A DNA stretch of 36,989 bases from Chthoniobacterales bacterium (GTDB lineage: Bacteria > Verrucomicrobiota > Verrucomicrobiia > Chthoniobacterales > JACTMZ01): assembly GCA_014879535.1 (NCBI GenBank), contig JACSRX010000007.1, forward strand, positions 1-36,989, given 5' to 3'. Position 1 is the stretch's first letter; each line of letters starts with the position of its first letter. Both the position numbers and the translations under genes were made by a program. Shown in pieces: positions 367 to 32,301 of the stretch. The notes below the pieces were generated by a model. That model did not search any database, was not told the origin of the DNA, and saw only the letters and a list, made by a program, of their open reading frames with translations.

Positions 367-1575
367 TCAAGAGTTGTCCGCGATGACCGCAGCATGCAGT
401 TCCTCGAAAAACTCCGGGAGCGCGGATTCCACGCGGTTCCAATTCGGAATAAGTGGCTCTCCCAATGGATCTTGCATGAACTCACGGGCCGCGGTCCGGA
501 TGCTGCGGACAAACGTGTTCACGGCGAGTTCCTCCTGATGCCGGTCGAAGGCCAGCCCGTTGATTTCCGCATCAGCGTGGTAAAAGCGGATGGTGTCCTC
601 GGCCTTGCGCAGGTAGGCGCTCAGCAGCGTATCGAACAGGCCGCTGTCCATCCGGATCCCCTCGGCGGCCACCGTGCGGAAGATGCACCGGGCGATGTCG
701 GTGGCCATCTTGTTGAGCCCCCTTCCGGCGTCGCGCGGCGAGAGTTCCTGGTGTTTGTGGTCGAAGCGGTCCCCGATTTCGACCTGACAGATCGCCTTGG
801 GTGATGTGACCCTGAAAACCTCGGCCAGCATGCCGACCTCCACTCCCCAGTCGGCGGGCATGCGCGTGCGTCGGACGACGTCCAAGTCCACGCAGATCTC
901 GCCCGAGAGCGGATAGCGGAAGGTGTCCATGTAGGTGAGGAAGGGGTGTGTGCCGATGATGCTTTCCAGCGAGCGGATGAGGGGTGTGAACATGAGGCGC
1001 ATCACGCGGCCGTTGAGTTTGTGCGTGAAGCGCGCGGTGTATCCCTTGCAGAAGTCGAAGCCGAGGCTGTCGTTGGCCACGGGATAGCACAGCCGGGCGA
1101 GAAGTTCCCTGTCGTAGGTCAGGATGTCGCAGTCGTGGGCGGCGATCACTTTCGCCTCCGCCGAGGCCAGCACGTAGCCGTAGCAGAGCCACATGTTGCG
1201 GCCCTTCCCCGTGCTTCCCGGGTCGAGATCCGCCGCCGCCAGTTTGCGGATGAGGCGGCGCATCCGCGGGCCGTCGTTCCACAGCAGGGTGGGGTGCCGG
1301 GGGGACCGCGCGAAAAATTCGCGCGCCTTGCGCCAACCGGAAGCGGTGGCCCCGTCGATGCCGACGACGACCTGCCGGAGGTAGTCGACCTCGTCGAGCG
1401 CGTTGAGGATGCCGCGGAGGGCGGGAGTTCCGATCTCGCTGACGTGGCACGGGAGGACGAGTGCGATGGGCATGTCCTCGACGAATTGGCGCAGCTGCGC
1501 CTCAAGCCTGTCCACACCGGGTTCGCCGAGGCGGTGCAGGGTGGCCATGGCGCCGGTTTGGAAGAAATCCGCCAT
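367..1575 (-). CDS. GT81-family glycosyltransferase, glucosyl-3-phosphoglycerate synthase-like
   Basis: A 402-residue cytosolic GT-A glycosyltransferase. Visible features are a GKGRNMW segment (residues 123-129), a metal- and nucleotide-binding DCD triplet (148-150, within HDCDILTYDREL) and later EVGMLAEVF and DHKHQ segments. These fit the GpgS family, which makes glucosyl-3-phosphoglycerate from an NDP-glucose and 3-phosphoglycerate. The frame stays open to a TTG at 1620, but the ATG at 1575 is preferred: family members begin near this point and a promoter (1585-1613) ends nine bases upstream. The gene diverges from a GT4 gene at 1646. The GH13_18 phosphorylase-like gene nearby supports glucosylglycerate metabolism. 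No matching phosphatase is visible in the window. Donor and acceptor are inferred from the family and could differ, for example mannose in place of glucose. Confidence 0.8.
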   Translation of the reverse strand: MADFFQTGAMATLHRLGEPGVDRLEAQLRQFVEDMPIALVLPCHVSEIGTPALRGILNALDEVDYLRQVVVGIDGATASGWRKAREFFARSPRHPTLLWNDGPRMRRLIRKLAAADLDPGSTGKGRNMWLCYGYVLASAEAKVIAAHDCDILTYDRELLARLCYPVANDSLGFDFCKGYTARFTHKLNGRVMRLMFTPLIRSLESIIGTHPFLTYMDTFRYPLSGEICVDLDVVRRTRMPADWGVEVGMLAEVFRVTSPKAICQVEIGDRFDHKHQELSPRDAGRGLNKMATDIARCIFRTVAAEGIRMDSGLFDTLLSAYLRKAEDTIRFYHADAEINGLAFDRHQEELAVNTFVRSIRTAAREFMQDPLGEPLIPNWNRVESALPEFFEELHAAVIADNS

Positions 1576-1584
1576 TGGGTTTGG

Positions 1585-1613
1585 ATTGTCGCCGCGTATG
1601 TGGGCATCATCAA
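1585..1613 (-). promoter_or_regulatory. Promoter of the GT81-like gene, very close to the start codon
   Basis: On the minus strand TTGATG (1608-1613) and GACAAT (1585-1590) are 17 bases apart, each matching four of six consensus positions. The -10 box ends nine bases before the ATG at 1575, so the predicted transcript begins almost at the start codon. It lies inside the longer alternative reading frame from the TTG at 1620, which is one reason to reject that start. Confidence 0.4.
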
Positions 1614-1645
1614 CCCCCAATGAACACGGGTGCCTTCACCGGCCG

Positions 1646-3202
1646 ATGATGACGAAGCTGCCCCGGCATCTCGTGGTTGCGCACTACCACCTGCGGCCGG
1701 GCGGCGTGCGGCGGGTGATCGAGACCGCGCTGCCCGCCATGGCCCGGGACATCGAACTGTCCTCGGTGACGCTGGCGACCGGCGAGGAACCGGATGAGGC
1801 GTGGCTCGCACGGCTCCGGGCGTCGCTTGGCGGCCTGACGTTGCATGTCGAGGTGCGGCGTGAGTTTCGTTACTGGTCGGAGCTTGCGCCGCCGTCATCC
1901 GGATTTGACGCGGCCCTCGTGCGATCCTGCACCGAATTGCTCGCGCATCACGGAGGAGAGGATGCCGTTCTCTGGGCGCACAATCTCGCACTCGGCCGCA
2001 ATGCGCCGCTCGCCGCGGCATGGACGCGTGCCGTGGCGGCCACCGGCGCGGTTTTCGTGTCGCACCACCACGATTTCTTCTTCGACAACCGCTGGGGTCG
2101 CTGGTCGGAGATGGAGAAGTCGGGCTTGGATGTTCCCGCCTCCGCGGCGCGGGTGGTTTTCCCTGCGGGGGCCCGCACCGTGCATCTCGCCATCAACAGG
2201 GCGGATCATGAACTGCTGTCCACCGGATTCGGGGAGAGGGCCCTCTGGGTGCCCGATCCCGTGGTCTCTCCCGTCCGACATGCGGGCCGGAATGAAGCGG
2301 CGGGGGCGTGGCTGGCATCGCGCACGGGACACGCAAGTCCTTACTGGCTGCTGCCCTGCCGCCTGCTGCGCCGCAAAAACATCGCCGAAGCGCTGCTTCT
2401 CGCCCGCTGGCTGCGTCCCGATGTCCGCGTGGTCACCACCGGCGCGCCGACCTCGGTCGATGAAATGCCCTACAACGCGCGCCTGCTTGAGGGAGCGCAC
2501 CGCGGGGGATGGCCGTTGGATTTGTCCGTCTTGGCCGGGGCGCCGGATCCTCCCCCGGTGTCCGCGCTCATCGGCGGGGCCGATGCCGTCCTGCTCACGT
2601 CGCTGCAGGAGGGTTTCGGTCTGCCCTACGTCGAGGCTGCGGTGGCGGAGCGGCCGTTGGTCGCCCGATCATTGCCGAATGTGCTGCCGGACCTTGTCTC
2701 GCTTGGATTGCGTGTCCCGGTCACTTACGACGAGATCCGCGTTCCGTGCGATCTGTTCAATGCGCGCCGGGAGAGGGAGCACCAGCGCCGGTTGTGGGAG
2801 GCGTGGAGGAGGACGCTGCCCGGCGAGGTCCGGTCGCTTGCAGGCGAACCGTTCTTCGTGACCGGAACGCATGATTCGGTTCCGTTCAGCCGCCTTACCA
2901 TGACGGCCCACCTCGAAATTCTGGGCCGCTCCCCGGACGAACTTGCGGCTGCGCTCGCCCCCGCCAACCCGGAACTGGCGGAGTGGTGCGGGAGCGGGCT
3001 TCCCTCCGCAGGGTTCGATGGGCAGGCGGCTTCGGCCCTGTCGCCGGAGCGATTCGCGGAGCATTTCCGTGAGGCTGTCGTGAAAGCGCTCGCGGTTGGT
3101 GGTGCGCCGGATGACGCGCCGGAGCGTGTTCTGCACCGCTTCCTCGTGGACCGCCTCCGCAGCGGCAACCTTTATCCGATGGTTTTCGCCCCCGAGACTT
3201 GA
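1646..3202 (+). CDS. GT4-like glycosyltransferase (first of two in the sugar cluster)
   Basis: A GT-B-fold glycosyltransferase of 518 residues. The N-terminal domain starts HLVVAHYHLRPGGVRRV, with the glycine-rich loop usual for retaining GT4 enzymes. An HHHDF motif lies at 140-144. The C-terminal donor domain has LPCRLLRRKN (about 236-245) and the EGFGLPYVE signature, with the paired glutamates at 322 and 330. About 130 further C-terminal residues are of no recognised type. The start is one of two adjacent ATGs (1646 or 1649), where homology to GT4 begins; the open frame itself extends upstream to 1403 over the GT81-like gene. It is divergent from that gene and convergent, seven bases apart, with the GH13_18 gene. 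It probably adds a sugar to a small acceptor related to glucosylglycerate, which is inference from context. Substrates are unknown. Confidence 0.8.
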   Translation: MMTKLPRHLVVAHYHLRPGGVRRVIETALPAMARDIELSSVTLATGEEPDEAWLARLRASLGGLTLHVEVRREFRYWSELAPPSSGFDAALVRSCTELLAHHGGEDAVLWAHNLALGRNAPLAAAWTRAVAATGAVFVSHHHDFFFDNRWGRWSEMEKSGLDVPASAARVVFPAGARTVHLAINRADHELLSTGFGERALWVPDPVVSPVRHAGRNEAAGAWLASRTGHASPYWLLPCRLLRRKNIAEALLLARWLRPDVRVVTTGAPTSVDEMPYNARLLEGAHRGGWPLDLSVLAGAPDPPPVSALIGGADAVLLTSLQEGFGLPYVEAAVAERPLVARSLPNVLPDLVSLGLRVPVTYDEIRVPCDLFNARREREHQRRLWEAWRRTLPGEVRSLAGEPFFVTGTHDSVPFSRLTMTAHLEILGRSPDELAAALAPANPELAEWCGSGLPSAGFDGQAASALSPERFAEHFREAVVKALAVGGAPDDAPERVLHRFLVDRLRSGNLYPMVFAPET

Positions 3203-3209
3203 AGCCTGG

Positions 3210-4829
3210 TCACGACCAGCGGACCTCGTAGGGGGCGAGCCGGATTCCTTCATGCTCCTGGCTGCGGCCGGCGATCTCGTGGAGGCACAGCACGCGGTCC
3301 GCGCCCTCGCCGCGTTCCACGGCGAAGATGCCCGCTCCCGCGTCGAGGATGCGCTGCGGGGAGGAGGGGGCGAACGCCCGGTGGCCGCGGCGCTGTCGGA
3401 GGAGCCCGGCGATGTTTTCAAAGATGCGCCGCCGGAGCGAGCCGGGGCGTTCCAATTCGCTTTCGAGGGTGTCGCGGCGGAACTTTTCGCGGTTGATCCG
3501 CCGCGGGATGCCGGAACTCCGGGCGCCGTCTGCATCGCCGCGCGAGCCGAAGAGCGAGTGGAAGTAGATTCCGGGAACCCCGGCCAGGGCAAACGCGATC
3601 GCATGGGCCGCGGTGAAGCGCCGGACGGCTGTTTCCTCGTCCACGCCCGCAGCAAGCGCGTCGAAATAAGACACGTTCAACTCGTAGGGCGCCACGGTGC
3701 CGTCCGGCAGGGACTTCATGCCCACGAATCCCCCCGCCGTGCGGGCGAGATCCACCAGGTTTCCGATCTGCGCATCGGACAGGATTCCGCGCGCGGGGTT
3801 CAGGCCGATGCCGTCGTGCGAGGCGAGGAAGTTGAAGAATGTGGTTCCATCCGACGGCGTCTGCAGCCCCGCGGCCCAGCGTGTGAGAGCCGTGGCGTCG
3901 CCGGTGCATATCGTGTGCAGGACAAGCGGCGGCAGGGCGAAGTTGTAAACCATCTGGGCCTCGTCCCTCCCGTTGCCGAAATACGAGATGTTGTCCGCGT
4001 GGGGGACATTCGTCTCGGTGACGATGCGCGCACCGGGTGCGGCCCCGTCGGTCAACGCCCGCCAGGCACGCACGAGTGCATGGGCCTGCGGTAGGTGCAG
4101 GCAGGTGGTGCCGGGCTCTTTCCAGATGAATCCGACGGCATCTAGCCGGATGTAGCGTGCTCCCTGGCGCAGGTAGAGGAGCAGTGCCTCGCTCACGGCC
4201 AGCATGACGCGCGGGTTGTGGAAGTTGAGGTCTGCTTGGTCGGCGCTGAAGGTGGTCCAGACCTTGCGTGTCCCCTCCGGGGTTGGAAACCCGGTCAGCA
4301 GGGGCAGCGCGCGCGGACGGATGACACGCGACAAATCCGGGTTGCCCGTGACGGTGACAAAAAAATCCCCGAAATCCCCGGTGCCGCGGAGGAATTTTGC
4401 GAACCAATCGCCCTGCACGGAGGCATGGTTGAAGACCGCATCGGCCATCAGGTCGAAATCTGCACCGAGTGCGCGGATGTCGTCCCATGTTCCCAGCACC
4501 GGATCGACGGCATGGAAGTCTTTGACTGAGAATCCGTCATCCGAGGACCATGGAAAGAACGGGAGCACGTGCACGCCGCTGACGAGTCCGGTGGCATGGC
4601 GCCCGAGGAATTCGCGTAGCGTCGCCAGCGGGCATTGTCCCGGGGCGGAGACTTGGTCGCCGTAGGTGATGAGTATCGCCTCGCCGGGATCGTCGAAGCC
4701 CGGCGACCGGGGAAGGCGGGCGTCCGCCCGCGCGCGGGCGCACAGCTCCCGTGCGAGCGGCGGCGCGTCGGCGCCGTAGAGGAATGCCAACTCGCGGTGC
4801 AGTCTTTCTTCCCAATCCACGGCATCCAC
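3210..4829 (-). CDS. GH13_18 sucrose-phosphorylase-like glycoside phosphorylase (glucosylglycerate phosphorylase candidate)
   Basis: A GH13 subfamily 18 enzyme of about 539 residues. Characteristic segments include LITYGDQ, FPWSSDDGFSV and VWTTFSADQADLN. The catalytic set is visible: nucleophile Asp in YIRLDAVG (about 230), acid/base Glu in TETNVPH (about 272) and stabilising Asp in FLASHDGIG (about 339). Family members reversibly phosphorolyse an alpha-glucoside to glucose 1-phosphate. Known specificities are sucrose, sucrose 6'-phosphate, glucosylglycerol and glucosylglycerate. The GpgS-like gene in the same cluster makes glucosylglycerate the best guess. The start is uncertain: the frame is open to 4916 with ATGs at 4916 and 4904. 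The residues before the GTG at 4829 look like a shadow of the divergent gene at 4873, so the shorter form is given. Confidence 0.82.
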   Translation of the reverse strand: MDAVDWEERLHRELAFLYGADAPPLARELCARARADARLPRSPGFDDPGEAILITYGDQVSAPGQCPLATLREFLGRHATGLVSGVHVLPFFPWSSDDGFSVKDFHAVDPVLGTWDDIRALGADFDLMADAVFNHASVQGDWFAKFLRGTGDFGDFFVTVTGNPDLSRVIRPRALPLLTGFPTPEGTRKVWTTFSADQADLNFHNPRVMLAVSEALLLYLRQGARYIRLDAVGFIWKEPGTTCLHLPQAHALVRAWRALTDGAAPGARIVTETNVPHADNISYFGNGRDEAQMVYNFALPPLVLHTICTGDATALTRWAAGLQTPSDGTTFFNFLASHDGIGLNPARGILSDAQIGNLVDLARTAGGFVGMKSLPDGTVAPYELNVSYFDALAAGVDEETAVRRFTAAHAIAFALAGVPGIYFHSLFGSRGDADGARSSGIPRRINREKFRRDTLESELERPGSLRRRIFENIAGLLRQRRGHRAFAPSSPQRILDAGAGIFAVERGEGADRVLCLHEIAGRSQEHEGIRLAPYEVRWS

Positions 4830-4872
4830 GTTTAACTGCCAAGGCCGCCCGTGCAATGCGGCAATCGGCACC

Positions 4873-6159
4873 GTGAGGACGACTTTCCCGCTTACCAGCC
4901 ACATTCCGAGGCGCATCGGATTCGTCTCGACCCGGTTTCACGGCACCGACGGGGTGACCCTGGAGGCGGGCAAATGGGCGGAGGTGTTCACGGCGGCGGG
5001 AGCCGAATGCTGCTGGATGGGCGGGTTGCTCGACACGCCCCAGGAAGCGAGCCGGCACGTCCCGCTGGCCTTCTTCGGCCATCCGGACATCCTTGAGGCG
5101 CAGGAGGAAATATTCGGGCGGACCACGCGGTCGCCGGGCACCACCGCGCGCATCCACGAGCTGAAGGAAAAGCTCAAGGCGGAGCTGTATGCGTTCGTGG
5201 CGGAGTTCGGCATCAAGCTGCTGGTTCCGCAGAACATCCTCGCCATCCCGATGAACATCCCGCTCGGGCTCGCGACGACCGAGTTCATCGCGGAGACAGG
5301 CATCCCCACCATCGCGCACCACCATGACTTCTCGTGGGAAAGGGAACGCTTCACGGTGTCGTCCGGCGCCGATTATCTCATGGCGGCCTTTCCTCCGTCG
5401 CTTCCGAACATCGAGCATGTCGTCATCAATTCCATGGCGCAGAAGGAGCTGGCCCGGCGCTACGGACTGTCGTCCGCGCTCATCCCCAACGTTCTCGACT
5501 TCGAGACATCGCCGCCCGGCATCAACGACTACAACCGCGATTTTCGCCGCGACATCGGGGCGGCCGAGGACGACATCCTCGTGCTCCAGCCGACGCGCGT
5601 GGTGCCGCGCAAGGGGATCGAGCACGCCATCGATCTGCTGCGGCAGCTGCGCGACCCGAAGGCCAAGCTCATCCTTTCCCATCCCTCCGGCGACGAGGGC
5701 AACGACTACATGCACCAGGTCAACGAGCGGATTGCGGACGCCGGCATCACGGCCATCGACATCGCGGACCGTGTGGGCGAACGCGGAGGGGTCAACAGGG
5801 AGGGACGCAAGACCTACACGCTTTACGACGTCTATCCGCACGCCGATCTCGTCACCTACCCGAGCTACTACGAGGGCTTCGGGAACGCGTTCCTCGAGGC
5901 GGTTTACTTCGGCAGGCCCGTGCTGGTGAACAAATACGCCGTCTATGCCCGCGACATCGATCCGCTGGGGTTCCGGACCATCGAGATGTCCCAGATCGTG
6001 ACCCGTGATGTCGTGGCGCAGGCGCGGCGAATCCTGGAAGACGGCGATCTCCGGGCCGAATGGGCGGCGGGGAACTTCGAGTTGGGCAGGAGGCATTTCT
6101 CCTACGCCGTGTTGCGCCGCAAGCTCGGGGCGCGGCTGGCGTCCCTGTTCGGGGAGTGA
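4873..6159 (+). CDS. GT4-family glycosyltransferase (second in the sugar cluster)
   Basis: A 428-residue retaining GT-B glycosyltransferase. RRIGFVSTRFHGTDGVTLEA (13-32) forms the N-terminal nucleotide and acceptor loop. HHHDFSWERERF (149-160) recalls the acceptor region of sucrose-phosphate-synthase-like and trehalose-synthase-like GT4 enzymes. TRVVPRKGIE (241-250) carries the basic residues that contact the donor phosphates. YEGFGNAFLEA carries the paired glutamates (334 and 342). The start is a GTG with no clear ribosome-binding site; no better start is in frame. It is divergent from the GH13_18 gene and ends one base from the nadB stop. It shares HHHDF with the other GT4 in the cluster. 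Mannosylglucosylglycerate synthase-type activity is possible from context, but the donor cannot be read from the sequence. Confidence 0.82.
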   Translation: MRTTFPLTSHIPRRIGFVSTRFHGTDGVTLEAGKWAEVFTAAGAECCWMGGLLDTPQEASRHVPLAFFGHPDILEAQEEIFGRTTRSPGTTARIHELKEKLKAELYAFVAEFGIKLLVPQNILAIPMNIPLGLATTEFIAETGIPTIAHHHDFSWERERFTVSSGADYLMAAFPPSLPNIEHVVINSMAQKELARRYGLSSALIPNVLDFETSPPGINDYNRDFRRDIGAAEDDILVLQPTRVVPRKGIEHAIDLLRQLRDPKAKLILSHPSGDEGNDYMHQVNERIADAGITAIDIADRVGERGGVNREGRKTYTLYDVYPHADLVTYPSYYEGFGNAFLEAVYFGRPVLVNKYAVYARDIDPLGFRTIEMSQIVTRDVVAQARRILEDGDLRAEWAAGNFELGRRHFSYAVLRRKLGARLASLFGE

Positions 6160-6160
6160 G

Positions 6161-7750
6161 TCAGACCCGCCGCATGACGGTGTCGTGGAGGAGGCGCTCG
6201 TCCGTCTGCGGATAATCGAGGGTGTAGTGCAGCCCCCGGCTTTCCTTGCGGCTGAGCGCACAATCCACGATGAGCGCGGCGACGGTGACGAGGTTGCGCA
6301 GCTCGAGGAGGTCGGTGGTGACCTTGAAGTTCCAGTAGAACTCCTGCACCTCCTTCTGCAGGTTGCGCAGCCGCGCGGCGGCGCGCTGGAGGCGCTTGTC
6401 GGTGCGGACGATGCCCACGTAGTCCCACATGAGGCGCCGGATTTCGTCCCAGTTGTGGTAGATGACGACCAGTTCGTCCACATCGGTGACGCTGCCCGGG
6501 CGCCACTCGGGGATCCGGATTTCGCCGGGGGCGCGCTGGTTCCTGGTCGCCTTGACGAAGGCGTTGTGGGCGAAGACCAGCGCCTCGAGGAGGGAATTGC
6601 TGGCGAGCCGGTTGGCGCCGTGCAGTCCGGTGCAGGCGGCTTCCCCGATGGCGAAGAGTCCGCGGAGGCTGGTTTCGCCGTGCTCGTTGGTCTTCACGCC
6701 GCCGCACTGGTAGTGCGCGGCGGGCACGACGGGAATGGGCTGCGCTGCGATGTCGATGCCGAGGCGGGCGCAGGTCTCGTGGATTTTCGGGAACCGCTCC
6801 TCCAGGAATCCGCGCGGTTTGCCCGTGATGTCGAGGAAGACGCACTTGGCCCCCGTGCGCTTCATCTCCGCGTCGATGGCGCGGGCCACGATGTCGCGCG
6901 GGGCGAGGCTTTTCAGCGGATGGTAGCGGTCCATGAAAGGCTGCCCGCTGCTGTTGACGAGCACGCCCCCCTCGCCGCGGACGGCCTCGCTGATGAGGAA
7001 GGATTTCGCTTCGGGGTGGAAGAGGCAGGTCGGGTGGAACTGGACGAATTCCATGTTGCTGACCGCCGCGCCGGCCCGCCACGCCATGGCCACGCCGTCG
7101 CCGGAGGCGATGTCCGGGTTGGTCGTGTAGAGGTAAACTTTGCCGCAGCCTCCGGTGGCAAGCACGATGCGGTCGCTGCGCAGGGTGTTCACCGTGCCGG
7201 ATTTCTCGTCGAGGACGTAGAGGCCCACCACGCGGTCCTCCGTGGCGTAGCCGAGCTTGCCGGTGGTGATGAGGTCCACGGCCATGTGGTCCTCGAACAC
7301 GCGGATCGAGCCGTGCTTCTCCACCGCGGCGAGGAGGGTGTTTTCGATTTCCAGCCCCGTGAAATCGTGGGCGTGCAGGATGCGGCGCTTGGAGTGTCCG
7401 CCCTCGCGTCCGAGGTCCAGCTCCGTCGTCCCTTCCGGGGTTTCGCGCAGGTCGAAGGACATTCCGAGGGCGATCAGTTCCCGGATGCGTCCGGGGCCGT
7501 CGCGCACCACCATCTCGACGATGTCCTCGTGGCAGAGGCCCGCCCCGGCATCGAGGGTGTCCTTGGCGTGGAGTTCGAAGGAATCCTCCGGGCTGGTCAC
7601 GCAGGCGATGCCTCCCTGGGCCCATGCCGTGTTGGTCGTGGCGCGTCCGCGCTTGGTCACGATGGCGACCGAGCCGGTCTCCGCGGCCTTGAGCGCGTAG
7701 GTCAGCCCGGCAATGCCGGAGCCGACGACGATATGGTCATACTTTTCCAT
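6161..7750 (-). CDS. nadB: L-aspartate oxidase
   Basis: A flavoprotein of 529 residues that oxidises L-aspartate to iminoaspartate, the first step of de novo NAD synthesis (quinolinate is then made by NadA). The N-terminus has the FAD-binding loop VVGSGIAGLTYAL, followed by NTAWAQGGIA. The family block REGGHSKRRILHAHD is intact, as is GLFAIGEAACTGLHGANRLA near the C-terminal side of the flavin domain. The helical C-terminal domain is complete. Length is normal for NadB. The start MEKYDH is the usual one, and the frame further upstream lies inside panC. The gene overlaps the end of panC by 14 bases and is the last member of a secG-panC-nadB run. nadA and nadC are not in the window. Fumarate reductase/succinate dehydrogenase flavoproteins are related, but the NadB-specific blocks fit better. 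Confidence 0.95.
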   Translation of the reverse strand: MEKYDHIVVGSGIAGLTYALKAAETGSVAIVTKRGRATTNTAWAQGGIACVTSPEDSFELHAKDTLDAGAGLCHEDIVEMVVRDGPGRIRELIALGMSFDLRETPEGTTELDLGREGGHSKRRILHAHDFTGLEIENTLLAAVEKHGSIRVFEDHMAVDLITTGKLGYATEDRVVGLYVLDEKSGTVNTLRSDRIVLATGGCGKVYLYTTNPDIASGDGVAMAWRAGAAVSNMEFVQFHPTCLFHPEAKSFLISEAVRGEGGVLVNSSGQPFMDRYHPLKSLAPRDIVARAIDAEMKRTGAKCVFLDITGKPRGFLEERFPKIHETCARLGIDIAAQPIPVVPAAHYQCGGVKTNEHGETSLRGLFAIGEAACTGLHGANRLASNSLLEALVFAHNAFVKATRNQRAPGEIRIPEWRPGSVTDVDELVVIYHNWDEIRRLMWDYVGIVRTDKRLQRAAARLRNLQKEVQEFYWNFKVTTDLLELRNLVTVAALIVDCALSRKESRGLHYTLDYPQTDERLLHDTVMRRV

Positions 7751-12316: not shown

Positions 12317-13801
12317 ATGCCCCGTTCGATCTCCCCACGCTCGAAGAGTCGCGCCCCCACAAACGGCGCGCCGACCCGGCAGGCTCCCCCGGGAGGGCGC
12401 GTCGGCCCGTCGAAGGCGGGTTCCGCCCAAACGGTGAATAACTCCGCGTCCGGCGAGGGCCTTGAAGCGCTGTGGAGCCAGATTTCATCGGCCTTGAAGG
12501 CCGAGTTGGGCGACGGGATTTTCGACCGGTGGTTTTCCACATTGCGTCCGTCGGTCCTGGATGCGCACCAGATCGTGCTTCCCATTCCGAACAGCATCTA
12601 TCAGGTCTGGATCGAGAGCAATTACGCCCCCCAAGTCCAGGCCGCCCTGCTCTCCGTGCTCGGCGGCAAGCGCAAGCTGGTCTTCAAGGTGGAGAACGGA
12701 GTCGTGGATGAGAAGACGCGGACCAAGGAGCCGGTCGCCATGGAGGAACCCGTGGAGGCGGTCGAGGCGCCCGGGCTCAAGGGGCTGAACCCGCACTACC
12801 TGTTCGAGACGTTCGTTGTCGGAACGAACAGCGAGTTCGCACACGCCGCGGCACTGGCGGTGGCCAAGTCCCCCGCGCTCACCTACAATCCGCTTTTCAT
12901 CCACGGTGGTGTCGGCCTCGGCAAGACGCACCTTCTGCAGGCCATCGGTCATCATCTGGCCGCATCGCGCTCCGGAACAAAGGTCGCCTACGTGCGGAGC
13001 GAGACGTTCACCAACGAATTCATCAATGCGATCCAGACCAATTCCCTGGTCAAGTTCCGCCGCCGTTACCGGCAGGCGGACATCCTGCTCATCGACGACA
13101 TCCAGTTCCTGGCCGGCAAGGAGCGCTCGCAGGAGGAGTTTTTCCACACCTTCAATTCGCTTTTCGAGGGGCGCAAACAGATCGTCCTCTCCAGCGACCA
13201 GCCGCCGAGCGAGATTTCGCAGCTCGAGCAGCGCCTTGTTTCGCGTTTCGAGTGGGGGTTGACCGCCGAATTGCAGCCCCCGGACATGGAGACGCGGCTG
13301 GCGATTCTGCGCAAGAAGGCCGCCGGGCTGGACGTGAAGCTCCCGGCGCATGTCCTCGATTACCTGGCGCACCGCATCAAATCGAACGTCCGGCGGCTCG
13401 AGGGAGCCCTGCTCCGGGTCGCCTCGTTCTCGTCGCTCAGCGGGCGTCCCCTCACGGACGAATCCATCGAGCATCTCCTGCGCGACATCCTGCAGGAGGA
13501 GGCGCGACGCGTGGTCACCGTCGATCAGGTGCAGCGCAAGGTGGCCGAGCACTATGATGTGCGGATTGCCGACATGACGGGCAAGCGGCGTCCGGCCCAT
13601 ATCGCCTTCGCCCGCCAGGTGGCCATGTTCATTTCCCGCCGACAGACCAAGAATTCCCTTCAGGACATCGGCGAGGCCTTCGGGGGCAGGGACCATGGAA
13701 CCGTCATCCACGCATGCAAGACCGTGCAGGCGCGCATGGAAAAGGAGGAAAGTCTGCGGCAGGTGATCGGGTTCCTGGAGTCCTCTCTGCAGCGCGGATG
13801 A
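12317..13801 (+). CDS. dnaA: Chromosomal replication initiator DnaA
   Basis: A 494-residue initiator that binds DnaA boxes and melts the origin. Domain I (about 47-115) starts GLEALWSQISSALK. A short variable domain II precedes the AAA+ domain, with Walker A GGVGLGKTH (197-205), Walker B in ILLIDDIQF (256-264) and a sensor region around EISQLEQRLVSRF. Domain IV ends with the DNA-binding signature GGRDHGTVIHACKTV (about 456-470). All motifs are intact. About 46 basic and proline-rich residues precede domain I, which is unusual. A GTG at 12434 would remove most of them, but the ATG at 12317 follows AT-rich leader sequence and is kept. dnaN follows, the common bacterial order. Confidence 0.97.
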   Translation: MPRSISPRSKSRAPTNGAPTRQAPPGGRVGPSKAGSAQTVNNSASGEGLEALWSQISSALKAELGDGIFDRWFSTLRPSVLDAHQIVLPIPNSIYQVWIESNYAPQVQAALLSVLGGKRKLVFKVENGVVDEKTRTKEPVAMEEPVEAVEAPGLKGLNPHYLFETFVVGTNSEFAHAAALAVAKSPALTYNPLFIHGGVGLGKTHLLQAIGHHLAASRSGTKVAYVRSETFTNEFINAIQTNSLVKFRRRYRQADILLIDDIQFLAGKERSQEEFFHTFNSLFEGRKQIVLSSDQPPSEISQLEQRLVSRFEWGLTAELQPPDMETRLAILRKKAAGLDVKLPAHVLDYLAHRIKSNVRRLEGALLRVASFSSLSGRPLTDESIEHLLRDILQEEARRVVTVDQVQRKVAEHYDVRIADMTGKRRPAHIAFARQVAMFISRRQTKNSLQDIGEAFGGRDHGTVIHACKTVQARMEKEESLRQVIGFLESSLQRG

Positions 13802-13813
13802 GCCCCTTTGGTT

Positions 13814-13844
13814 TTGACAGCAAGGCCGAATTTTCCGACATAAA
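13814..13844 (+). promoter_or_regulatory. Possible dnaN promoter
   Basis: A perfect TTGACA (13814-13819) is followed 19 bases later by CATAAA (13839-13844), four of six matches to the -10 consensus. The spacing is longer than ideal. It lies just after the dnaA stop codon and about 40 bases before the dnaN ATG, so dnaN could be expressed separately from dnaA. Confidence 0.35.
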
Positions 13845-13883
13845 GCGGCTTGCCGCCCATGCCGGCGGGAAACAGATCAACCC

Positions 13884-14984
13884 ATGAAATTCACCATCTC
13901 GCAGGAAGCCTTCTCCGACGGCCTGCAAAACGCCGTCAGTGCCGTCAATCCCCGCAGCACCCTGCCGATCCTTTCCAACGTCCTTCTGCAGGCCTCCGGC
14001 GACGAACTCGTCCTCACCGCGACCGATCTCGACTTCACCGTGCGCACCCGGGTCACCGCCAAAGTCGGCAAATCCGGCACGACCACGCTGCCGGCCCGCC
14101 GTTTGGGCACCCTGGTCAAGGATCTCCCCAAGACGGACATCGAAGTCGAGGTGGATGCCAAAAGCATGGCGACCCTGCGCAGCGGTGCGGGCGTTTACAA
14201 AATTTTCGGGTTGCCCGAGGCGGAATTCCCCGGACTGCCCGCGTTCGAGGGGGCGGTGGAGTTCCGGTTGAAGTCCGCCGACCTCAAGGGCGCCCTGCGC
14301 AAGACGCACTATGCCATTTCGCTGGACGAGACGCGTTTCGTGCTCAACGGCATTTTCTTCTCCTTCAAGGGCGACAAGCTCACCCTGGTGGCCACCGACG
14401 GGCGCCGTCTCGCCCTTGCCGAGGTCGGCGACCTTGAAATTCCGCCCAGCCAGGAACGCGACTTCATTGTGCGCACCAAGGCGATCCTCGAGGTCATGCG
14501 GGCTCTCAAGGATGATGAGGATGTGGTGGTGCGCCTTGCCCAGAACCTCGTGCAATTCGACTGCGGCTCGACCACGCTGATCTCCAAGCTGGTCGAGGGC
14601 AATTACCCGAACTACCTGCAGGTCATCCCGACCAAGGTCAACGAGCGCGTCACGGTCGAGCGCGAGGCCCTGCTCAATGCCGTGCGCCGCGTCTCCCTGC
14701 TCAACAGCGAGAAAAGCGCCTCCGTGCGGCTCAACTTCACCAAGGGCAGCATCGAGATCACTTCCAACGCACCCGAGGTTGGCGAAGCCCGCGAATCCCT
14801 CGCCGTGTCCTACAAGGGCTCGGACATCTCGATCGCCTTCAATCCCGAGTTCCTCATGGCCCCGCTTCGCAACTTGCAGGAGGATGAGGTGCATTTCGAA
14901 CTGATCGACGACATCAGCCCGGGAGTGATCAAGATCAACGCCCCCTTCGTCTACGTGCTGATGCCGATGCGTGTCGGGGCCTGA
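13884..14984 (+). CDS. dnaN: DNA polymerase III beta sliding clamp
   Basis: A 366-residue clamp, the normal length for DnaN, which forms a dimeric ring holding the replicative polymerase on DNA. It starts MKFTISQEAFSDGLQ with the early signature STLPILSNVLLQ and ATDLDFTVRT. The C-terminus ends PFVYVLMPMRVGA, matching the conserved MPMR end that forms part of the partner-binding pocket. All three clamp domains appear complete. It lies 82 bases after dnaA. The next gene follows 13 bases after its stop, so it heads a run with the lysozyme-like gene, polX and ispA. Confidence 0.97.
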   Translation: MKFTISQEAFSDGLQNAVSAVNPRSTLPILSNVLLQASGDELVLTATDLDFTVRTRVTAKVGKSGTTTLPARRLGTLVKDLPKTDIEVEVDAKSMATLRSGAGVYKIFGLPEAEFPGLPAFEGAVEFRLKSADLKGALRKTHYAISLDETRFVLNGIFFSFKGDKLTLVATDGRRLALAEVGDLEIPPSQERDFIVRTKAILEVMRALKDDEDVVVRLAQNLVQFDCGSTTLISKLVEGNYPNYLQVIPTKVNERVTVEREALLNAVRRVSLLNSEKSASVRLNFTKGSIEITSNAPEVGEARESLAVSYKGSDISIAFNPEFLMAPLRNLQEDEVHFELIDDISPGVIKINAPFVYVLMPMRVGA

Positions 14985-30423: not shown

Positions 30424-32301
30424 TCAGAGGATTTCAAGATTTTTGAAAGCGGTGACGGAGAGGATGTCCACCTCGCGTTCCCCGGATTCCGAGGGCATGC
30501 GGACAGTTTCCCCGGCGGCATGGCCGATGAGTGCGGTGGCGGCGGCGGCGAGGTAGGAGACGATGTTCTTTGCGGAGTCGCCGTCCCACGCGCCGAGGAT
30601 GTGCAGTTCCTCCTCCGCGCCGGAGTCCTTGTCGCGCAGGCGCACCGTGGTGCCGATGCCGGCGCGCGAGGTGTCGGGGTTCTCGAAATTCGTGCCGCGG
30701 CAGTTGGCCAGCATCTGCTCGAGTTCCGCCTTCTGACGGAGGAGCACCCCCTGCTGTTCCTTGGCGAACTTGAAGCCGGCGTTCTCGCGCAGGTCGCCCT
30801 GCTCGCGGGCGACCTGGATGTCGCGGCTGTTGGCAGGGATGCGCACGTTGACCAGGTCGTCGTAATCCTTCTTGCGGCGTTCCAAGCTCGTCCACGAAAC
30901 CGTGAGGATCTTGGCGGCGGGTGCCGCGGCGGGGGTCTTCTCCTCGCCGGCCTCGAGAAGTTCCTGCAGTTCGGGGCGCGCCTTGATGGCGCGCGCGAGA
31001 AGGGACCGTTTGTCCGTGGCCTCGAAGACGGGTGTGCGCATGATCTTGCGAACGAGGTCGCGCGCCGCCTCCCCGTCGGCGGACGCCAGCGCGGTTCCCA
31101 TGAGGGTCTTGTCGTCGGCGAGGACCTTGTGGAGCCTGACGGCGCGCTTGCTGTCCTTGATGGCTTCGCGTTCGACAACCGTGATGGCGGCTTCAAGGGT
31201 CTCGGGGGTGATCAACCCTGCGAGACCCGCAGGACGCTTGGACAGGAGCCATGCAAGCAACTCGGGGTTGGTGTTGCGCTCGGAAATGGTGCGGCGGAGA
31301 TTGTCGCGCAGGGGCTCGAGGTGTCCCTTGTCGAGAAGGAGCCGGGTGGCTTCCGTGATCACCTTGCTGTCGCCCTCGGAGAGGACATCGATCAGCAGGT
31401 TGTCGCCGGCGGCTCCCCCGAGGGCCGCGCCGGCCTCGAGGGCGTGGCGGATGCGGGCGGCGGGGAGCGGTGCAATCAGGGCGGCGAGATGCGCGGGAGG
31501 GTGGGAGAGAAAACTGGTCAGGGTGAGCGCACCACCGGGCAGCGGCGCCTTGCTGCGATCGATGATTTCATCCCGGATGCACAGCAGGTGGATCGCGTGG
31601 GCGGGCGAGCGGCGCTGGTGGTCGGCGGCGGCCTTGTCAAGCAGGCCGAGCACGCGGGCAAGTTCGTCGGGGGCGCGGTCGAATTTCGCGAGGCCGCGGA
31701 GCAGCGTTTCGGCTGCGGCAGCCTGCTCCTTGGGCTGGCGGGCCTTCTCGAAGGCATCGACGATGTCGAGGTGCGGGGCTTCGGGGCGCTCGCGCACCAG
31801 GATGAACTCGTTCTTTTTGGACGGGATGATGAAGCGTCCGTCAGTCTTCAGCTTGGTGCGCAGGGAGGTCCACCATCTCTTGAACGGCTCCTTGCCGCCT
31901 TCGGGGAAAGCCGCATCCGGGAGAGCGGACCGCAGGTAGTCGGAGAGTCCGTCGAGGGTGAGGCGCGAATTGAAGTCGGTGATGACATTGTGGACGAATT
32001 CCACCGGGTTTCCCAGCGCCTCGCGGCGGACGCCCTCGGCGTCGCCCATCCTGCGTGCCTCGATATGGGTGTCCGGAATGGGGGTGAGGGCTGCGGCAGC
32101 AAAGCCGATCTGCATGGTCTGGCGGCGGCCGCCGAGAAATTCGAGTTCAAGCTGGCCGAGCATGAAATCGGCGCCTGCGACGCGGGCGCAACCCCAGCTC
32201 TTGTGCAGGGCGAAAGCGCCGGGGGCGAGTTGGTCGAGTATGTTTGCCTGTTGCTGGGAGATTTTACCTTCTTCGACGGCCTTCAGTAATTCCGAATGCA
32301 T
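30424..32301 (-). CDS. greA: GreA/GreB-family transcription elongation factor with a long N-terminal extension
   Basis: A 625-residue protein, about four times the usual GreA length. Residues from about 465 are a GreA/GreB module: the coiled-coil tip reads AREQGDLRENAGF with Asp503 and Glu506 in the positions that bind the second Mg2+ in RNA polymerase for transcript cleavage. A GreA C-terminal domain follows (GIGTTVRLRDKDSG to HAAGETV). The N-terminal part starts with a small beta-like region (about 23-80; PGAFALHKSWGCARVAG, then LELEFLGG) that resembles the CarD/TRCF RNA-polymerase-interacting fold, then about 350 mostly helical residues. Chlamydia and Borrelia also have long GreA proteins, which supports a PVC-type host. 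Role of the extension is unknown. Confidence 0.88.
   Translation of the reverse strand: MHSELLKAVEEGKISQQQANILDQLAPGAFALHKSWGCARVAGADFMLGQLELEFLGGRRQTMQIGFAAAALTPIPDTHIEARRMGDAEGVRREALGNPVEFVHNVITDFNSRLTLDGLSDYLRSALPDAAFPEGGKEPFKRWWTSLRTKLKTDGRFIIPSKKNEFILVRERPEAPHLDIVDAFEKARQPKEQAAAAETLLRGLAKFDRAPDELARVLGLLDKAAADHQRRSPAHAIHLLCIRDEIIDRSKAPLPGGALTLTSFLSHPPAHLAALIAPLPAARIRHALEAGAALGGAAGDNLLIDVLSEGDSKVITEATRLLLDKGHLEPLRDNLRRTISERNTNPELLAWLLSKRPAGLAGLITPETLEAAITVVEREAIKDSKRAVRLHKVLADDKTLMGTALASADGEAARDLVRKIMRTPVFEATDKRSLLARAIKARPELQELLEAGEEKTPAAAPAAKILTVSWTSLERRKKDYDDLVNVRIPANSRDIQVAREQGDLRENAGFKFAKEQQGVLLRQKAELEQMLANCRGTNFENPDTSRAGIGTTVRLRDKDSGAEEELHILGAWDGDSAKNIVSYLAAAATALIGHAAGETVRMPSESGEREVDILSVTAFKNLEIL

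Follow-up and report, generated by a model that had tools for sequence, protein, structure and literature searches.

Genes and layout of the locus

The window analysed here is one whole contig (C94, 36,989 bases) of a draft Verrucomicrobiota genome (G000; 3.17 Mb in 97 contigs, 95.9% complete). At its left end, where the DNA beyond the first gene lies out of sight, four intact open reading frames stood on alternating strands. A GpgS-type (GT81-like) glucosyl-3-phosphoglycerate synthase (gene A, 367 to 1575, minus strand, 402 residues) was divergent from a GT4 glycosyltransferase (gene B, 1646 to 3202, plus strand, 518 residues) across 70 bp, and a GH13_18 glucosylglycerate phosphorylase-like enzyme (gene C, 3210 to 4829, minus strand, about 539 residues) was divergent, across about 43 bp, from a second GT4 enzyme distantly related to mannosylglucosylglycerate synthase (gene D, 4873 to 6159, plus strand, 428 residues, full-length). 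B and C converged, 7 bp apart. An earlier reading of this DNA from the letters alone (hereafter the sequence-only reading) had described two divergent pairs of genes, as found here, and had assigned each gene to its family, with which model, structure and motif matches agreed. Two starts were corrected: A very probably begins at 1575 and not at 1620, because the N-terminal MADFFQ is conserved across homologs, and B begins near 1646, 1403 being merely the start of the open reading frame. To the right, outside the module, followed nadB (L-aspartate oxidase; 6161 to 7750, minus strand; PRK09077, 759 bits, above cut-off), a neighbour also found in the sister genome G007. Farther along the contig, about 6 kb from the cluster, lay dnaA (Pfam) and a dnaN-like gene recognised by eye (12434-14984), and at 30424-32301 a GreA/GreB-type protein had about 470 additional residues at its N-terminus, with no Pfam match.

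Gene A matched the NCBIfam model NF040724 (GpgS_Meth) over its full length with 312 bits (E 6e-93), under the equivalog cut-off of 700 bits. Its overall phmmer match to a solved mycobacterial GpgS was weak (E 5e-4), and the GKG, DxD, GVExG and His positions corresponded; we take the catalytic residues of GT81 GpgS enzymes to be the Lys of GKG, the DxD motif, the Glu of GVExG and the active-site His. The family of B had no NCBIfam model, and its match to Glycos_transf_1 was weak. The protein carried the motifs HHHDF and QEGFGLPYVE, a long C-terminal extension and, like D, an E-x7-E motif. Its predicted structure (mean pLDDT 66.0) showed a GT-B fold with Z scores of up to 17 to GT4 structures; the model supports a GT-B fold of GT4 type, not a substrate. 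B and D were homologous over about 260 columns, with the HHHDF stretch common to both. D matched NF041101 (mannosylglucosylglycerate synthase, MggS) along residues 15-416 with 203 bits, under the equivalog cut-off of 640, and its relatives scored 183-238 bits; the structure model of D was uninformative (mean pLDDT 36.8).

Gene C matched the GH13 catalytic domain, and its best solved relatives were GH13_18 phosphorylases. Glucosylglycerate phosphorylases (GGaP) are marked by (T/S)ETN at the end of strand 5 and by a conserved Glu in loop A (PMC7178133). C had TETN at residues 271-274 and PYELN at 381-385, both invariant in four homologs (the window protein and three others); PYELN also occurred in C of two distant loci, its placement in loop A being by position. 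C thus carries both published marks and is, by its sequence, GGaP-like. That C might instead be a sucrose phosphorylase, and the cluster a sucrose module, is extremely improbable: sucrose phosphorylase (TIGR03852) was the top NCBIfam match of C, but at 162 bits it fell well under the cut-off of 334, TETN and PYELN point to glucosylglycerate, and the gene adjoins GpgS and MggS-like genes. On motifs and score we therefore rejected a sucrose module. The sequence-only reading had allowed for an enzyme acting only on sucrose, and the marks of sucrose phosphorylases were missing from the protein.

Distribution in the order and the phylum

Among 213 genomes of the window's order, A was present in 64, B in 31 (E 1e-20 or better), D in seven and C in four, with the divergent A-B pair in about 20; A and B were missing from nine of the 11 genomes of the window's genus. 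Relatives of B were sought among plasmids, where none was found. D always adjoined A or lay within about 10 kb of it, and in G029, G019 and G075 it stood divergent to A without B. The sister genome G007 had kept A and B, with X (a phosphatase-like gene described below), C and D all absent; some 20 codons from the 3' end of D survived, still in frame, beside nadB (L021, 8243-8308), so D was once present there and was then deleted, and C was probably deleted together with it. In other families A occurred without B, often adjoining pssA and psd. One such lone window-type GpgS (L062, 9293-11970) adjoined genes matching models of phosphatidylserine synthase and decarboxylase, and by eye the settings in L119, L120, L124, L128 and L129 looked alike, some with phosphoglycerate mutase near.

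A profile of B matched in 70 of 388 sampled genomes of the phylum, and 67 B-bearing loci were read and scored with profiles. GpgS lay within 1.5 kb of B in 48 of the 67, X adjoined B or was fused to it in 45 (three fusions included), and an M20-family hydrolase was found in 42, D in 34 and C in 25. All six genes, namely GpgS, the GT4 enzyme B, the HAD X, the MggS-like GT4, GGaP and the M20 hydrolase, occurred together in 19 of the 67 loci by a manual count from the profile table. In most phylum loci the M20-family metallohydrolase gene stood between GpgS and D (e.g., L131, 8846-10015); the cluster of the window showed no such gene. Between GpgS and B of L185 lay a GNAT-type acetyltransferase recognised by eye (5622-6071), whose family occurred in eight loci, and beyond it and the six genes no other recurrent partner was found in the phylum loci. 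The four genes of the window do co-occur in relatives, a point on which the sequence-only reading had let its proposal depend. A strongly diverged D was seen in L152, L158 and L162, behind X, with B, X and this D all read in one direction.

The GpgS of almost all phylum loci was of the bacterial type (NF010496, above cut-off in L131 and L103), not of the window's type. A tree of 43 B proteins fell into two clades split by one branch with 100/100 support. The 16 sampled proteins of the first all came from the window-type side, from the window's order and mostly directly beside A; in the second, 23 of 27 proteins accompanied a bacterial-type GpgS. Judging from this tree and the neighbouring genes, a change of GpgS type goes with a change of B clade. 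GpgS-B loci were also observed in Xiphinematobacter (G017; L102, 8767-11165), where the pair, with a bacterial-type GpgS, was intact, and in the similar genome G027 (L108, 9484-11858), where GpgS was intact and B was broken by two frameshifts.

A phosphatase-like gene lost from the window genome

The sequence-only reading had remarked on the lack of a visible phosphatase, and for the window this held. A search for an X ortholog in the G000 assembly gave at best a generic HAD at 28 bits, the order-wide search of 213 genomes added none for G000, and no member of the MpgP family (TIGR01486) scored over the cut-off in G000 or in 14 related genomes. Relatives, in which the same reading had suggested looking for a linked phosphatase, do have a candidate. 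This is X, which encodes a HAD-IA hydrolase of about 240 residues and starts either inside the end of B or right beside it. It sits directly behind B and before C or D in L022/L080 (two loci read on the same contig), L053 and L055. The gene order, with strands as in the window, was A reverse, B and X forward, C reverse and D forward in L022/L080 and L053/L054, and A reverse with B, X and D forward in L055. The window repeats the order of L022 minus X, and by the gene order of L022/L080, L053 and L055 the site of the missing gene is the 7 bp at 3203-3209. In three relatives X was joined to the C-terminus of B in a single open frame, of 715 residues in G462, 753 in G451 and 877 in G423.

X has been lost in the window genome. 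Within the order it was present in five of 213 genomes, in four of the five within the B locus, and it was missing from many A-B pairs, also without a linked replacement; a search behind B in the loci without X revealed no recurrent substitute phosphatase. The loss is real, recurs in relatives and is not unique to the window. A phosphatase gene might still lie to the left of A, where the contig ends; in the three relatives with a fuller set X stood between B and C or D, not left of A. Two unlinked candidates in G000, a HAD-IIB protein in L068 and a HAD-IA protein in L109, were set aside as generic HADs, the former scoring below every family cut-off except the broad HAD-IIB one. The sequence-only reading had offered three explanations, a phosphatase elsewhere, a phosphorylase working in the synthetic direction or a product that keeps its phosphate; these are superseded in part by the finding that relatives have a linked phosphatase-like gene behind B that is absent here.

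In most members of X where HAD motif I was readable it was D-x-Y-G-T, not D-x-D. A D-x-Y motif I is that of haloacid dehalogenases and is unusual for a phosphatase, so phosphatase activity of X is not assured.

Proposed pathway and alternatives

We favour, as the probable reading, that the window carries a pared-down version of a Verrucomicrobiota-wide locus that would make and recycle a glucosylglycerate-based oligosaccharide, likeliest a mannosylglucosylglycerate-like compatible solute. A would transfer the glucose of an NDP-sugar onto 3-phosphoglycerate, B would add a further sugar to the resulting glucosyl-3-phosphoglycerate, and X, where present, would remove the phosphate from the product of B. 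D may add mannose directly to free glucosylglycerate, and C, with phosphate, would split glucosylglycerate to glucose 1-phosphate and glycerate, allowing its recycling. That B accompanies either of two unrelated types of GpgS, and that it can be fused to X, suggests that B works side by side with GpgS and that the phosphate comes off at B's own step or close to it. Since X is absent from the window genome with no obvious replacement, either dephosphorylation by an unlinked phosphatase or a supply of glucosylglycerate from C running backwards has to be assumed there. The idea of a module that makes and recycles glucosylglycerate and may extend it, already put forward in the sequence-only reading, is supported by the GGaP motifs, the MggS-like D and the conserved pairing of GpgS with B and with D, and that reading was broadly right. 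Its companion suggestion of one or two further sugars needs qualifying: several relatives have GpgS with just one of the two enzymes B and D, and a trisaccharide completed by either is therefore at least as likely as two sugars added in turn.

Other readings of the same genes differ mainly in the order of steps and in the product. Characterised MggS acts on free glucosylglycerate, and given the MggS-like D and the homology of B to it, HHHDF included, X could serve as a direct GpgP on glucosyl-3-phosphoglycerate, leaving B to use free glucosylglycerate as D would. The B-X fusion is compatible with either order. B and D would then be redundant, yet many loci keep both, and fusions of a glycosyltransferase with a HAD usually join consecutive steps, transferase then phosphatase, the order in which sugar transferase-HAD fusions work in trehalose- and sucrose-phosphate synthesis; we regard dephosphorylation before B as possible but rather doubtful. 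It is unlikely that GpgS and B make the primer or head group of a larger glycan or glycolipid, a role that glucosylglycerate has in mycobacterial methylglucose lipopolysaccharide, and not a free solute. The intact GpgS-B pair kept in Xiphinematobacter and the lone GpgS beside phosphatidylserine synthesis genes in other families (L062) would suit such a role, but linkage to an MggS-like D and a GGaP-like C speaks for a small, soluble and recycled glycoside, and the B of G027 is broken by frameshifts. Quite improbable, finally, is a window genome that works without any phosphatase, C synthesising glucosylglycerate from glucose 1-phosphate and glycerate, D extending it, and A and B serving another product. 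G000 has neither X nor an MpgP over cut-off, C and D form a divergent pair, and GH13_18 reactions are reversible (PMC7178133), all of which would be in keeping with that arrangement; against it, G029, G019 and G075 hold D with A alone and no C, which argues that D is independent of C, and the generic HAD phosphatases of G000 (L068, L109) could serve.

The preferred reading, of a pathway through glucosyl-3-phosphoglycerate with phosphate removal at or near B, has evidence to reckon with as well. A and D both score below their equivalog cut-offs, X has the D-x-Y form of motif I and is missing, with no linked substitute, from many A-B pairs of the order, the scheme gives no part to the M20 hydrolase of 42 of the 67 loci, and Xiphinematobacter, an intracellular symbiont with 817 proteins, has kept GpgS-B, which is unexpected for a salt-stress solute.

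Comparison with known systems

Mannosylglucosylglycerate (MGG) is made by a phosphorylating route through GpgS, MggA and MggB and by a non-phosphorylating route through MggS; Petrotoga mobilis has GpgS, MggA and MggB plus MggS, and Rhodopirellula baltica has GpgS, MggA and MggB. The latter belongs to a related phylum and builds up MGG when exposed to salt and nitrogen limitation (PMC3694870). By analogy, the Verrucomicrobiota locus most likely mirrors both routes. It shares with the Rhodopirellula and Petrotoga pathways the GpgS step, glycosyltransferase and phosphatase partners and, by model match, an MggS-like D, B being likened to MggA and X to MggB by role and not by sequence. It differs in that one locus also links GGaP and another GT4 enzyme, joined in relatives by an M20 hydrolase, and the window differs further in having no X and a D outside the MggS equivalog cut-off. 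The GpgS-GpgP sets with a GH13_18 enzyme, of the Meiothermus, Spirochaeta and E. coli type, likewise have GGaP beside GpgS, with both GGaP marks, whereas the window has two GT4 genes and no GpgP/MpgP-type phosphatase, and the HAD of its relatives belongs to another subfamily (HAD-IA, D-x-Y-G-T). The B-X fusion of three relatives, a GT-B domain followed by a HAD, recalls the two-domain enzymes of trehalose- and sucrose-phosphate metabolism; unlike these it combines another GT4 subfamily with HAD-IA instead of HAD-IIB in a glucosylglycerate context, and in the window B is unfused.

In the part of the open-access literature available to us, two papers named both glucosylglycerate and Verrucomicrobia, in passages on other matters than this locus, and no description of a glucosylglycerate pathway in Verrucomicrobiota was found. 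The points added here are X, the linked phosphatase-like gene that relatives have and the window genome lacks, the joining of B and X in one frame, the exchange between GpgS types and the six-gene locus found across the phylum. Tentatively, and as a possibility short of our main expectation, the phylum may hold an undescribed six-gene locus in which a GT4 enzyme of a family with no model makes a phosphorylated trisaccharide that is handed to its own HAD phosphatase, in some cases fused to it, two unrelated GpgS types have been exchanged together with the GT4, and the product is perhaps a new or further modified glycerate glycoside. The Verrucomicrobiota are abundant in both soil and fresh water, and the locus offers a defined set of genes to test for a glycerate-based osmolyte, with a candidate phosphatase named by gene order and fusion, a GT4 family that has no curated model and a linked M20 hydrolase that is unexplained. 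The repeated loss of X raises the question of which phosphatase acts in its place, or whether the product keeps its phosphate. A second type of HAD was also seen beside GpgS-B: in G094-G096 a REG-2-like HAD gene, above cut-off, converges on B (L103, 8189-8896).
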